NCBI RefSeq assembly: GCF_000176015.1 | Contig: NZ_ACYY01000009.1 | Coordinates: 1-64,000 of the forward strand | DNA length: 64,000 nucleotides | Origin: Rhodobacter ferrooxidans | GTDB taxonomy: Bacteria; Pseudomonadota; Alphaproteobacteria; Rhodobacterales; Rhodobacteraceae | Direction of reading: 5' to 3' | Shown: positions 27,940 to 40,636 of the stretch, piece after piece | Position numbering within the stretch: the first letter of the stretch is position 1 | Layout: each line of letters starts with the position of its first letter | The notes under the pieces: model-generated | What the model saw: only the letters and a program-made list of their open reading frames with translations | What the model was told of the DNA's origin: nothing | Database searches by the model: none | Program-made: the position numbers and the translations under genes

Positions 27940-28308
27940 TCATTTCAGGGTCGCGGGGCGGATCGCGCTCAGCGGCACCAGCCGCGGGCTGCGCTTGGCA
28001 TTGGCATTGGCCAGCACCTTGAACACCTTTTCCTGCAACGGCGTGCTGGTTTCGAAATCGGCATGCGCCCGGCGCAGCGCGTCCTTGGCGGCGGCCAGAA
28101 TGGTGGCATCGCTTTGCCCCGACAGGCTGGCGGGTTGCAGATAGACCCCCATGCGTTTGAGGATATGCAGGCGGGCGACGTTCACCACCTCGGGGTTGTA
28201 GGGCACGTCGAGGAATTCGAAGATCGCCTCGGTCGAGGGCAGCGCCTGGATCTGCGCCAGCACGGAAGCGCGCGGGGTGGCAATCGGTTTCTGGATCACA
28301 CGGGTCAT
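27940..28308 (-). CDS. nifW: nitrogenase stabilising/protective protein NifW
   Basis: 122 residues with the NifW core AEAIF-like segment [32 protein letters not shown] and a C-terminal basic tail. NifW is reported to bind the MoFe protein and to protect it or assist its maturation under oxygen. ATG 28308 overlaps the nifV stop (ATGA). Confidence 0.93.
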
Positions 28309-29444
28309 TCTGAAGCCTTTCCAAGGGGTTGAACACAGGCCAGCAAGGCCGCCAGATCGCCGGGGCCAGCCCAGCGTTTCGAACGGGATGCCCAGGTGCG
28401 CAGGCCCGGTTGCAGGGCGCGCACGGTGTCGGGGTCATGCGGCAGGCCGGCTTCGGCCAGCGCCCGGGCAATTCCCGCAGCGCCGGAGTGCTTGCCCGCC
28501 ACCAGCCGGTGTTGCCGTCCAAAGCGTTCCGGCGGCAGGGCGGCACTTTCATAGGTGCGGCGGTCCTTCAGCAGCGCATCGACATGGATGCCCGCCTCGT
28601 GGGTGAACACCGCATCCCCGACGATGGGTTTTGCCGCAGGCACCGGCCGCCCGGAGGCCTTTGCCACCAGCGCCGACAGGGCAACCAACTTGTCCAGCGC
28701 GATGCCGGTTTGCCGCCCGCCCGCCGCCAGCACCGCCGCCACCTCCTCCAGCGCCGCGTTGCCCGCCCGTTCGCCCAGACCGTTGACCGTCACCGACAGA
28801 TGGCTGGCCCCGGCCTTGGCAGCCGCCAGAGTGTTGGCGGTGGCCATGCCGAAATCGTTATGAGCGTGAAACTCCAGCGGCAGGGTCAGGCGCGGCAGCA
28901 ATTGCGCCACCAGATCATGCGCCGCAAAGGGGTCGAGGATGCCCAGCGTATCGGCCAGCCGGAAGCGGATCGCGCCCGCCTTGGCCGCAATGCCCGCAAT
29001 CTCGGCCAGAAAGCCGGGGTCAGTGCGCGAGGCATCCTCGGCGCCGACCGACACCGCAAAACCACCTTGGGTCGCCCGCCCCACCCAACCGGCCAGTTCG
29101 CGCTTCAGCCAGGCGGCATCCACCCGCAGCTTGCCCGCCATCTGCCGGTCGGAGGTGGGGGCCGCCACATGCAGCCGCCGCACGCCGCATTTCGCGGCCT
29201 GCTCCAGATCCTCGGGGCGCAACCGGCACCAGACCACCGGTTCCGCGCGGCGCAGATCGGCGGCCATGGCGCGGATGTCGGCAATCTCCGATGGCCCCAT
29301 CGCCGCCACGCCAAGCTCGATCTCGGCCAACCCTGCGCCGTCCAAAGCCCGGGCGATCGCCCGCTTTTCGGCGCTGGAGAACGCCACACCGGCGGTCTGC
29401 TCGCCGTCGCGCAGGGTGGTGTCGCACAGCACCAGCGGTTTCAT
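28305..29444 (-). CDS. nifV: homocitrate synthase NifV
   Basis: 379 residues. DRE-TIM metallolyase: [20 protein letters not shown] at the N-terminus, [17 protein letters not shown] with the metal His residues, and [14 protein letters not shown]. Condenses acetyl-CoA and 2-oxoglutarate to homocitrate, the organic ligand of FeMo-cofactor. Overlaps nifS and nifW by four bases each. Confidence 0.96.
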
Positions 29445-30619
29445 CGCACGGCCTCCCCGGCAAAGTCGGGCTGGCCCGCGCCAAACGGCGACAGCGCCCG
29501 CAGCTTTTCGACGATGCCCGGCAGCACCGCCAGCACATGATCGACCTCCGCGTCGGTGGTTTCACACGACAGCGACAGCCGCAGCCCGCCATGCAGCGCC
29601 GCAAACGGCAGCTTCATCGCCCGCAACACCGGGCTGGGTTCCATCGCCCCCGAGGCGCAGGCCGAGCCCGACGAGGCCGCAATCCCTTCGCGGTCCAACA
29701 GCATCACCAGCGCCTCGCCTTCGACGAAATCAAAGGCCAAGGCGCAGGTATTGCCCAGCCGGTCCAGCCGGTCGCCAAGCACCTGCACCCCGGCGATGCG
29801 GGACAGAATCCCCGCCTCCAGCCGGTCGCGCAGGGTGGCTATCTTGCGGAAATCATGGGTGGAAACCAGGTCTGCCGCCGCCCCGAAACCCACAATCCCC
29901 GGCACGTTCAAGGTACCCGCCCGCCGCCCGCGTTCCTGCTTGCCACCGCGCAGCAAGGGCTGGAACCGCGTGCCCTTGCGCAGATAAAGCGCGCCGACGC
30001 CCTTCGGCCCATGCAGCTTGTGGGCGGAAACCGAGGCCATATCCACCCCCGACGCCGCCAGGTCCAGCGGGCATTTCCCCGCCGCCTGCACCGCATCGGT
30101 GTGAAACAGCGCCCCCGCCTGATGCGCCAGTTCCGCCAGCCCCTCGATGGGGAAAATCGTGCCGGTTTCGTTGTTGGCCCACATCAGGCTGACCAGCGCC
30201 GTCTGCGGCCCCAGGGCGGCGCGATAGGCGTCGATGTCCAGCCGCCCCTGCCCGTCCACCCCGATGCGATGCACCCGCACCCCGGCGCTTTGCTCCAGAA
30301 AGCCGCACAGCGCCAGGATCGACGGGTGTTCGACGGTCGAGGTGATGATCTCGCGCCGCGCAGGATCGGCCAGCCCCGCCATGATCGCCGTGGTATTGGC
30401 CTCGGTGCCACCCGAGGTGAAAATGATCTCCTCCTCCAGCGCCGCCCCCAAAAGCCCGCGCACCTGTGCCCGCGCAACACCCACCGCCCGCGCCGCCTGA
30501 TTGCCCAGCGCGTGCATCGACGACGGGTTGCCATAAGCCTCGGCCAGATGCGGCAACATCGCGGTCAACGCCTCGGAGGCAAGGCGGGTGGTGGCGTTGT
30601 TGTCGAGATAGCTGCGCAT
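29441..30619 (-). CDS. nifS: cysteine desulfurase NifS
   Basis: 392 residues from ATG 30619. Class V aminotransferase fold: [49 protein letters not shown], the PLP lysine in [16 protein letters not shown] and the active Cys in [15 protein letters not shown]. Releases sulfur from cysteine for nitrogenase Fe-S clusters. Adjacent to nifU and an A-type carrier, though that NifU is atypical, so the true recipient of its sulfur is an open point. Confidence 0.97.
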
Positions 30620-30629
30620 GGCCTGACCC

Positions 30630-31352
30630 TCAGCTTTTCGCCACGGGGATGACGCGGATCGGCCGGCCCAGCGCGTCGGCAATGCGCTTTTGCAAGCCGC
30701 CCAGCGTCAGCGAGGCCATCTGGCAGCCCTTGCAGGCGCCGGTCAGATGCACCTGCACCCGGCTGCCGGAGAACTCCATCAGCTCGACATCGCCGCCATC
30801 GGCGCGGAACACCGCCCGCATCTGCTCCAGGATCCGCGCCACTTCGGCGGCTTCCTCGGCGGGCGACAGCGGCACCTCGCGGGCAACGCGGGGCTGCGAG
30901 GGATGGGTGGGGGCAATCGGCACAAAGGATTGCCGCGGCGAGACGGTCAGCGGCGTCACCGGCTGCGGCACCGGCAACGGCTCGCCGGTGAACACCGCCA
31001 AGGCCGCGGCCAAAGCCTGCGCGCCCATCGCCGGGCTTTGCATCTGGTCTTCCGGCAATCCACCCAATGCCTGCGCGATATCGGCGCCAGTCAGCAGCCG
31101 CGCCTCGGCCACCGATTTGCCCTGCACCAGTTCGGTCAGCACCGACCCCGCGGCAATCGCCGGAAAGCCGCCAAAGCTCTGGAAACGGGCTTCCTCGATC
31201 ACTTCGGTTTCCGGGTTGACCCGCAGCATCAGCCGCAGCGCATGGCCCGCGCTCAAGGAACCCGCCTCGCCCACCGCATTGGCACCCTCAAGGGCACCGC
31301 CATTGCGCGGGTTGAAGAAATGGTCGCGGACCTGATCGGAAGACCCCAGCAT
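30630..31352 (-). CDS. nifU: NifU with cysteine-free scaffold domain
   Basis: 240 residues; canonical NifU has about 310. Residues 1-125 align to the IscU-like scaffold domain (HFFNPRNGGALEGANAVGE, FQSFGGFPAIAAGSVLTELV, LGGLPEDQMQSPAMGAQAL). All three cluster-ligand cysteines are replaced: by Ala (GSLSAGHALRL), Gly (FGGFPAIA) and Ser (QMQSPAMG). The central ferredoxin-like 2Fe-2S domain is absent and a Pro-rich linker stands in its place. The C-terminal Nfu domain is intact, with LTGACKGCQMASLTLGG. Only this domain can carry a cluster. The gene lies between nifS and an A-type carrier and shows no frameshift. Confidence 0.92.
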   Translation of the reverse strand: MLGSSDQVRDHFFNPRNGGALEGANAVGEAGSLSAGHALRLMLRVNPETEVIEEARFQSFGGFPAIAAGSVLTELVQGKSVAEARLLTGADIAQALGGLPEDQMQSPAMGAQALAAALAVFTGEPLPVPQPVTPLTVSPRQSFVPIAPTHPSQPRVAREVPLSPAEEAAEVARILEQMRAVFRADGGDVELMEFSGSRVQVHLTGACKGCQMASLTLGGLQKRIADALGRPIRVIPVAKS

Positions 31353-31361
31353 CGTCGCCCC

Positions 31362-31682
31362 CTAGCAGAAGGATTTGCCGCAGCCGCAGCTGCTGGTGGC
31401 ATTCGGGTTGTCGAACACGAAACCCGCGCCTTCGAGGTTGGACACGAAGTCGATGGTGGCACCCTGCAGATGCGCCTGGCTTTCGGCATCGACCAGCACG
31501 GTCACGCCATCGGATTCGATCACCGCATCGCCGGGGGCGGCGTCAAGCTCCAGCGCCATGCCGTATTTCAGGCCGGCGCAACCGCCGGTCTGCACCATGA
31601 CCCGCAGGCCAGCGACCGGTTGGGCGGCCCCGGCAATCGCGGTGCGGATGGCGTCACGGGCGGCGGGGGTGATTTCGATCAT
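31362..31682 (-). CDS. iscA: A-type iron-sulfur carrier (IscA/NifIscA)
   Basis: 106 residues. HesB/IscA fold with all three ligand cysteines: VQTGGCAGLKYGM and the C-terminal SSCGCGKSFC. It carries or transfers Fe-S clusters for nitrogenase maturation. First gene of the iscA-nifUSVW-fixABCX-rpoN run, about 40 bases downstream of a sigma-54 promoter (31722-31737). With NifU lacking scaffold cysteines, this protein may take a larger share of cluster handling. Confidence 0.94.
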   Translation of the reverse strand: MIEITPAARDAIRTAIAGAAQPVAGLRVMVQTGGCAGLKYGMALELDAAPGDAVIESDGVTVLVDAESQAHLQGATIDFVSNLEGAGFVFDNPNATSSCGCGKSFC

Positions 31683-31721: not shown

Positions 31722-31737
31722 AGCAGCAGCCGTGCCA
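31722..31737 (-). promoter_or_regulatory. sigma-54 promoter of the iscA-nifUSVW-fixABCX operon
   Basis: On the minus strand the sequence reads TGGCAC-GGCTG-CTGCT. This is a -24/-12 element with correct spacing, matching TGGCAC-N5-TTGCW except for one base. It lies 40 bases before the iscA ATG and is almost identical to the nifH and nifB promoters in this window. Confidence 0.88.
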
Positions 31738-31822: not shown

Positions 31823-32359
31823 TCACGCCTCGGGGGCAAAGCAGACGGTCTTTTCCGGGCAATCTTCGCAATTCGGCGACAGGCACATCGTGGCACCGGT
31901 TTCGCTGCAGATCTGGCGGTAGAAGAACCGCTTCCAGCGCATGTTGCGGCTGTTGGCGGCGGCAAGCCGGGGAAATTCGCGGGCGATCAGGCGGCCAAGC
32001 GCCGGGCGGTCGGGCAGACCAAGGTCTTCCCACAGGTGCCGCGCCTCCATCGACCGGCGGGCAAGGATATGCGCCAGCCAGAAGCTTTCCTCGGAATTGG
32101 CGCCGCCGCGCCAGCGGATCATCAGGGTGATCGCCGCCTGATCCTCGGGCACCGCAGCCAGCGGGGCATCCAGATCGGGCAGCGCCAACCCCGGAAACCA
32201 GCGTTCGCCCAGCCGCGCCAAGGACTTGCCCTCCAGCCCCAGCAGGTCGGTCAGCCGCCCCCGGCCCTGCGCCCGTTCGGCCAACGCATGCAGCAGAATG
32301 GCGCCCAGATCGGCGCGCAGGTCGCCCAAGGGGGCCGGGTCAGGCTTCGGCGGCTGCAT
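31823..32359 (-). CDS. nifQ: NifQ, molybdenum donor for FeMo-cofactor
   Basis: 178 residues from ATG 32359, overlapping the end of fdxB by 20 bases. The C-terminal motif CLSPNCEDCPEKTVC (C-x4-C-x2-C-x5-C) is the NifQ signature and holds an Fe-S cluster used to deliver molybdenum. NSRNMRWKRFFYRQIC precedes it, as is typical. It is the last gene of the nifHDKENX transcript, ending just before the upstream element of the iscA promoter. Confidence 0.94.
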   Translation of the reverse strand: MQPPKPDPAPLGDLRADLGAILLHALAERAQGRGRLTDLLGLEGKSLARLGERWFPGLALPDLDAPLAAVPEDQAAITLMIRWRGGANSEESFWLAHILARRSMEARHLWEDLGLPDRPALGRLIAREFPRLAAANSRNMRWKRFFYRQICSETGATMCLSPNCEDCPEKTVCFAPEA

Positions 32360-32651
32360 GGGTCTGGCAGTCCTTCGGGCAGACCCGGTTGCAGGCGCCA
32401 CAGCCGACGCAGGCCCCGGCATCGACCATCACCATGATCTTGCGGACGATATCGCCGTCGTCGTCATCATCGTCGTCATCCTCCGACACCTCGACAATCG
32501 CGCCATCCTCGGTGACTCCGCGCAGGGTCATCACCGGGCGGCCACAAACCTTGTAGCAACGGCCGCAGCCGATGCATTTGGCGGCGTCGATCGCGGTCAG
32601 GAACAGCGGCACATATTCGGTGCCATCGCGGGTAAAGGCAGTGATCGGCAT
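32340..32651 (-). CDS. fdxB: ferredoxin III, nif-specific (FdxB)
   Basis: 103 residues from ATG 32651. Two cysteine clusters, CIGCGRCYKVCGRP and CVGCGACNRVCPKDC, bind 4Fe-4S clusters. Between them is a run of eight aspartates (SEDDDDDDDDGD at about residues 56-67). FdxB is associated with nifENX genes and is reported to supply electrons for cofactor assembly. Acidic loops occur in relatives, but this run is long. Confidence 0.93.
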   Translation of the reverse strand: MPITAFTRDGTEYVPLFLTAIDAAKCIGCGRCYKVCGRPVMTLRGVTEDGAIVEVSEDDDDDDDDGDIVRKIMVMVDAGACVGCGACNRVCPKDCQTHAAAEA

Positions 32652-32673
32652 GAGTTTTCCTTTCCCGCAGACC

Positions 32674-33147
32674 TCAGGCCCGCGCGGCATCCGGGTAGGT
32701 TTCAATGGTGGCAACGGCATCGGCGGTCAGCTTTTCGCCCGCCTCGGCCAGCTTGGCCCAGGAGGCAAAGCCGAAACGGTGGATGTCGCGCAGGTGTTTC
32801 GAAAGCACCACCAGCTTGCCGGCAATCAGCACCATGCGGCCAAAGCCTTCATGGCTGAACTTGCTCATCGGCGTGGCCATGCAGCCCGATTGCCGTTCGA
32901 TCAGCAACCCGATGGCGGCGTAGAACTTCTCCAGCCGCCAGACGGTATCGGGGTCGGGGTCGCCCATGATCGGCATGTCGCGGCGTTCCTCGGCGGTCAG
33001 GATGAATTCCGACAGCAATTCGGGGTCGGTCTTGTTGTCCCAGGCGCCATGGCCATCCTCGGCCCGCACCACCGCCACCAACTGTTTCAGAAAGGCGCTG
33101 TCCGGCCAGTCGCCGCCGCGCGCGGTGAGGGTCTGCGTGTCGGTCAT
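32674..33147 (-). CDS. NifX-associated nitrogen fixation protein (DUF269)
   Basis: 157 residues from ATG 33147, overlapping the nifX stop. Contains FLKQLVAVVRAEDGHGAWDN, LLSEFILTAEERRDMPIMGD, WRLEKFYAAIGLLIERQSGC and the MATPMSKFSHEGFGR segment, all features of the DUF269 family always found after nifX. Biochemical function is not settled; a role in cofactor maturation or NifEN handling is assumed from its constant location. Confidence 0.93.
   Translation of the reverse strand: MTDTQTLTARGGDWPDSAFLKQLVAVVRAEDGHGAWDNKTDPELLSEFILTAEERRDMPIMGDPDPDTVWRLEKFYAAIGLLIERQSGCMATPMSKFSHEGFGRMVLIAGKLVVLSKHLRDIHRFGFASWAKLAEAGEKLTADAVATIETYPDAARA

Positions 33148-39634: not shown

Positions 39635-40636
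<1,002 letters not shown>

Follow-up and report, generated by a model that had tools for sequence, protein, structure and literature searches.

Cysteine-depleted NifU in diazotrophic Rhodobacteraceae: a possible cluster carrier for nitrogenase maturation

How is nitrogenase matured in a bacterium whose NifU has lost the residues on which iron-sulfur (Fe-S) clusters are built? The question is raised by the nifU gene (30630 to 31352, minus strand) in a 64,000-nucleotide stretch of Rhodobacter ferrooxidans (contig NZ_ACYY01000009.1, positions 1 to 64,000), called the window here. In Azotobacter vinelandii, the U-type (IscU-like) domain of NifU is where clusters are built, with the help of NifS and a ferredoxin cluster, before they pass to the C-terminal domain and to clients; the ligands are C35, C62 and C106 in the U-type domain and C272 and C275 in the C-terminal domain, and NifS-driven reconstitution fails without the ferredoxin [2Fe-2S] cluster (PMC13382767). 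Because the window NifU lacks both the U-type cluster site and the ferredoxin cluster site, scaffold chemistry by this route is unlikely. We lean towards the reading, drawn from sequence and from analogy, that this depleted NifU is no longer a scaffold and would serve as a specialised carrier of clusters in the maturation of nitrogenase.

The gene is an uninterrupted open reading frame (31352 to 30630) for a protein of 240 residues, described here by Pfam, alignment and a structure model. Residues 1 to 125 (30975 to 31349, minus strand) form the U-type domain, assigned by Pfam (NifU_N, residues 5 to 123, E 8e-34), an AlphaFold model and alignment. Residues 169 to 237 (30642 to 30848, minus strand) form an Nfu-type domain, assigned by Pfam (PF01106, residues 171 to 235, E 8e-17) and alignment. 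A short linker (residues 126 to 168) joins the two domains. In an alignment against 42 canonical sequences of NifU, the three ligand positions of the window protein are A35, G62 and S106, with H37 in place of D37. Counted by alignment, its linker has 76 residues, no Cys and no Pfam domain, whereas canonical NifU from Rhodobacteraceae has a linker of 167 to 188 residues with four Cys. Residues 1 to 125 and the linker hold no Cys at all, and hence no Cys ligands for a cluster or for zinc; the only two in the protein, C207 and C210, form the intact CKGC motif of the Nfu domain. The original prediction, made by a model from the DNA alone, had described the Ala, Gly, Ser and His replacements, the missing ferredoxin domain, an intact frame with the domain kept without its chemistry, and Cys-based cluster binding limited to the C-terminal CxxC; all of this is borne out.

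The predicted fold has outlived the ligands. The AlphaFold model retains the IscU fold (predicted local distance difference test score 88), its best Protein Data Bank match is Aquifex aeolicus IscU (2z7e, target template-modelling score 0.79), and it scores 0.85 by the same measure against Escherichia coli IscU in its complex with IscS (3lvl). The protein reaches 219 bits against TIGR02000 (NifU_proper), below the curated equivalog cut-off of 273.3 bits, and NfuA models match it weakly, over the Nfu domain. The linker itself contains a conserved proline-rich stretch, FVPIAPTHPSQP (30903 to 30950, residues 134 to 148), a possible short binding motif, whose P136 is nearly invariant in canonical and depleted NifU alike.

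Is this loss peculiar to one genome? A survey of 395 Rhodobacteraceae genomes, one per genus, shows NifH in exactly 12, and the same 12 have a NifU with a U-type domain. NifU is canonical in four of these genera and lacks C35 in eight, seven of which also lack C62 and seven C106. The residues at positions 35, 62 and 106 are A/G/S in the window, G/G/S in genome G386, A/G/A in G339, E/G/C in G091, V/G/A in G051, T/G/A in G363 and A/C/A in G365; G251 reads A/G/A by alignment, with one Cys two positions on. In the genus of G363, probably Rhodovulum, 15 of 16 species have a depleted NifU, and the same 15 have NifH above the cut-off. In all, 22 genomes combine Cys loss with an intact frame. The loss is therefore clade-wide, a point that the original prediction had raised, and sequencing or alignment error is ruled out because the loss recurs in 21 further, independent related genomes. 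It is confined to one family within the genomes sampled, since all three Cys are present in each of the six NifU-bearing genomes drawn from other alphaproteobacterial families. A search of a plasmid collection gave no close relative (the best match, in Rahnella, is 45% identical), and same-genus searches around G000, G386 and G339 returned nothing beyond each genome itself. In the open-access literature no paper was found that describes the Cys loss or the missing NifS discussed below.

If this NifU is not a scaffold, another scaffold has to be sought. The 12 nif-bearing genera have no canonical NifU or IscU besides each one's single NifU. A search of the window genome for a second canonical NifU or IscU, suggested with the original prediction, likewise found none; it gave only a weak match, a SufU/NifU_N-type protein of 142 residues (L002, 1474 to 1902) with two Cys and no third, and similar weak matches occur in G386, G091 and G051. 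A complete iscR-iscS-sufB-sufC-sufD-sufS run is present in the window genome and in G455, the regulator having been checked in the window genome only. The window genome also encodes a 214-residue NfuA-like protein.

Two precedents suggest how such a NifU could work. In E. coli NfuA, the cluster sits on the Nfu domain, and a carrier domain that has lost a ligand directs the protein to its apo-protein targets (PMC8593673); in Paenibacillus, SufCDB and an Nfu-only protein can serve nitrogenase (PMC8038749). Together with the missing scaffold sites, these precedents lead us to propose that the window NifU is the U-type equivalent of NfuA and receives its clusters mainly from SUF. A cluster would be made elsewhere, most likely by SufBCD; the Nfu domain, through CKGC, would carry it as a [4Fe-4S] cluster bridging two subunits and pass it to nitrogenase proteins or their maturases; and the U-type domain, its cluster site lost, would be retained for docking, dimerisation or both. 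NifS, where retained as in the window, may feed sulfur to the SUF route. The suggestion that cluster assembly had moved to the C-terminal domain thus survives in part: that domain would carry the cluster, while assembly would be better assigned to SUF. Docking of clients (NifH, NifB or NifQ) by the U-type domain is possible. NifQ is ruled out as a general partner: the nif regions read in the 15-species genus showed no nifQ.

The order in which the parts were lost can be read tentatively from a tree built on five nif proteins of the neighbourhood, with other Alphaproteobacteria as the root. In it the canonical Rhodobacteraceae fall to one side and every depleted genome to the other. G365 is the first branch among the latter, with an ultrafast bootstrap of 76 at that node and 100 elsewhere. 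Its NifU has lost C35 and C106 and retains C62 and a four-Cys linker, which suggests, with modest support at the key node, that C35 was lost first and C62 and the ferredoxin domain afterwards. In G251 the linker is shortened and holds one Cys, and the remaining depleted proteins have no ferredoxin domain. C106 was probably lost more than once, since G091 still has Cys at that position. The nifU of G365 lies in two halves at contig ends (the ends of L114 and L115); this is an assembly break, and a true split of the gene is ruled out.

Whether the U-type domain is still maintained was assessed from ratios of nonsynonymous to synonymous substitution (dN/dS), which are Nei-Gojobori counts on GC-rich genes and thus rough estimates, for six independent species pairs in the 15-species genus and two pairs taken from the part of the tree that holds the window. 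In the former the pooled ratio is 0.167 for the U-type domain (95% bootstrap 0.13 to 0.21) and 0.304 for the linker (0.20 to 0.43); the Nfu domain stands at 0.095, NifV at 0.136 and NifN at 0.191. In canonical pairs the ratio of the U-type domain is 0.10. Canonical NifU has 76 conserved positions, and 31 of them persist in at least 90% of depleted proteins. The positions lost cluster at C35, 60 to 69 and 101 to 109, at the former cluster site and in the PPxK-HC segment; NPxN, GGLP and positions of the core are retained. Constraint on the U-type domain is relaxed about fourfold and not lifted, most clearly in the 15-species genus, where the domain is under purifying selection and has outlasted NifS.

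Several observations weigh against the proposed carrier. For the two window-side pairs, dN/dS of the U-type domain is 0.38 (0.28 to 0.52), near the linker's 0.40, with the Nfu domain at 0.21, so that strong constraint in the window's own lineage is a weaker case. The divergence of the U-type domain relative to NifV is 1.4 in depleted genomes and 0.32 in canonical ones, whereas that of the Nfu domain is steady at 1.1 to 1.2. Since the N-terminal domain evolves fourfold faster and its window-side ratio lies near the linker's, the domain may be partly drifting in this lineage. Furthermore, nifS stands intact beside nifU in the window and would be unneeded under a pure SUF supply. Finally, nifU double mutants of Rhodobacter capsulatus are reportedly still able to fix nitrogen, suggesting that NifU may be of minor importance in this group; the R. 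capsulatus NifU proteins are said, by Masepohl et al. in 1993, to match only the C-terminal domain and to be dispensable.

These points bear on the strongest alternative, that the protein is a decaying relic: SUF and other carriers made NifU dispensable, the cluster site and ferredoxin domain went first, and the rest is slowly eroding, with no function except to do the protein no harm. The graded losses over the tree, from G365 through G251 to the proteins without a ferredoxin domain, and the raised rate of the N-terminal domain are what such decay would produce. Nonetheless the frame is intact in every genome with a whole gene, the persistent positions include the NPxN loop, and a ratio below the linker's over six pairs in the NifS-less genus is left unexplained. 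Decay is therefore rather unlikely, although it deserves to be taken seriously.

A second alternative is that the U-type domain docks NifS, as the original prediction suggested, and thereby places it beside the Nfu domain, where persulfide sulfur would go straight into the CKGC cluster. Desulfurases are indeed bound by IscU-type domains, and nifS is intact and adjacent to nifU in the window and in six other depleted genera. The window NifS (29441 to 30619, minus strand) scores above the TIGR03402 cut-off and has an intact pyridoxal-phosphate lysine motif and active-site loop (SGSACASG). This model fits the window but not the genus of G363 (g364). No nifS was found in the genomes of its 15 NifH-bearing species (L113, L172 to L185), where the best desulfurase matches are 33 to 45% identical to the window NifS and for the most part belong to the SUF run; the other 10 genomes have a true NifS, 60 to 76% identical. 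The nif clusters of this genus run from nifU directly to nifV. The published genome of Rhodovulum tesquicola, a species for which acetylene reduction was measured, agrees with this pattern: the locus tags of nifU, nifV and nifW are consecutive, with no mention of nifS (PMC9412634). Since the domain is held under purifying selection in 15 diazotrophs that lack NifS, docking of NifS cannot be its general role, though it could persist in the window's lineage. Moreover, in IscU the Cys loop of the desulfurase is faced by segments around 35, 62 and 101 to 109, and these are the ones that changed most. As an account of the depleted proteins a NifS dock is distinctly improbable.

An unusual cluster or metal site on the N-terminal domain, formed by His, Asp or Ser, is very unlikely indeed: in most depleted sequences D37 persists or has become Asn, but the Cys replacements are mostly Ala, Gly, Thr and Ser and vary by lineage, the window domain has two His in total, and no new conserved His or Cys appears that could act as a ligand.

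Set beside known systems, the proposed carrier combines familiar parts in a different way. The window protein shares with canonical NifU (A. vinelandii; TIGR02000) the order of U-type and Nfu domains, similarity over both, and nifS, iscA and nifVW as neighbours, while it lacks C35, C62, C106, D37 and the ferredoxin domain. Like NfuA of E. coli and A. vinelandii, it joins a cysteine-deficient carrier-type domain to an Nfu domain that binds a cluster (PMC8593673). The dead domain of NfuA is of the A-type and that of the window protein of the U-type (Pfam NifU_N, IscU fold), and the two proteins are not homologous over the first domain. NifU1 and NifU2 of R. capsulatus, of a related family, share the iscN-nifU1-nifSVW context and NifA-dependent production (PMC6925177), whereas by description their U-type domain is gone. 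Paenibacillus, with SufCDB, a NifS-like protein and YutI, also matures nitrogenase without a NifU scaffold by means of SUF and an Nfu-domain protein (PMC8038749), but retains no U-type domain, and its nif cluster has neither nifU nor nifS. We tentatively suggest that an IscU fold may have been turned into a metal-free adaptor, a U-type pseudo-scaffold, across this diazotrophic Rhodobacteraceae branch, docking SUF or nitrogenase clients and steering the Nfu-bound cluster.

The gene lies among other nif genes. The order in the window is nifQ, iscA, nifU, nifS, nifV, nifW, fixABCX and rpoN, and the orders in G051 and G455 match published ones (nifUSVW-rpoN, and rpoN beside fixABCX; PMC6925177). 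The features that follow, as far as nifH, are on the minus strand. The first gene of the iscA-nifUSVW run (31362 to 31682) encodes an A-type carrier of the IscA/IscN type with GGCAG and CGCG cysteines. Downstream of nifS lie nifV (homocitrate synthase; 28305 to 29444) and nifW (27940 to 28308). In the 140-bp gap between nifQ (31823 to 32422) and iscA stands a sigma-54-like −24/−12 element, TGGCACGGCTGCTGC (31723 to 31737), with one mismatch to the pattern; matches to this pattern across the window are no more frequent than in shuffles, a chance level. With nifH at 39686 to 40510, the nif cluster is complete enough to encode nitrogenase. Between its two 4Fe-4S motifs the nif ferredoxin (32340 to 32720) has eight consecutive Asp (EDDDDDDDDGD).

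The core gene set for nitrogenase is usually taken to include NifU and NifS, and both are part of engineering efforts. Here, natural diazotrophs keep half of the chemistry of NifU, and one genus does so without NifS. If the pseudo-scaffold proposal is correct, nitrogenase would be matured in this branch without a working NIF scaffold and, in that genus, without NifS as well. The family offers a natural series, from canonical through partly depleted NifU to depleted NifU with and then without NifS, in which the role of each NifU domain could be probed and which may serve to ask whether SUF feeds nitrogenase directly.
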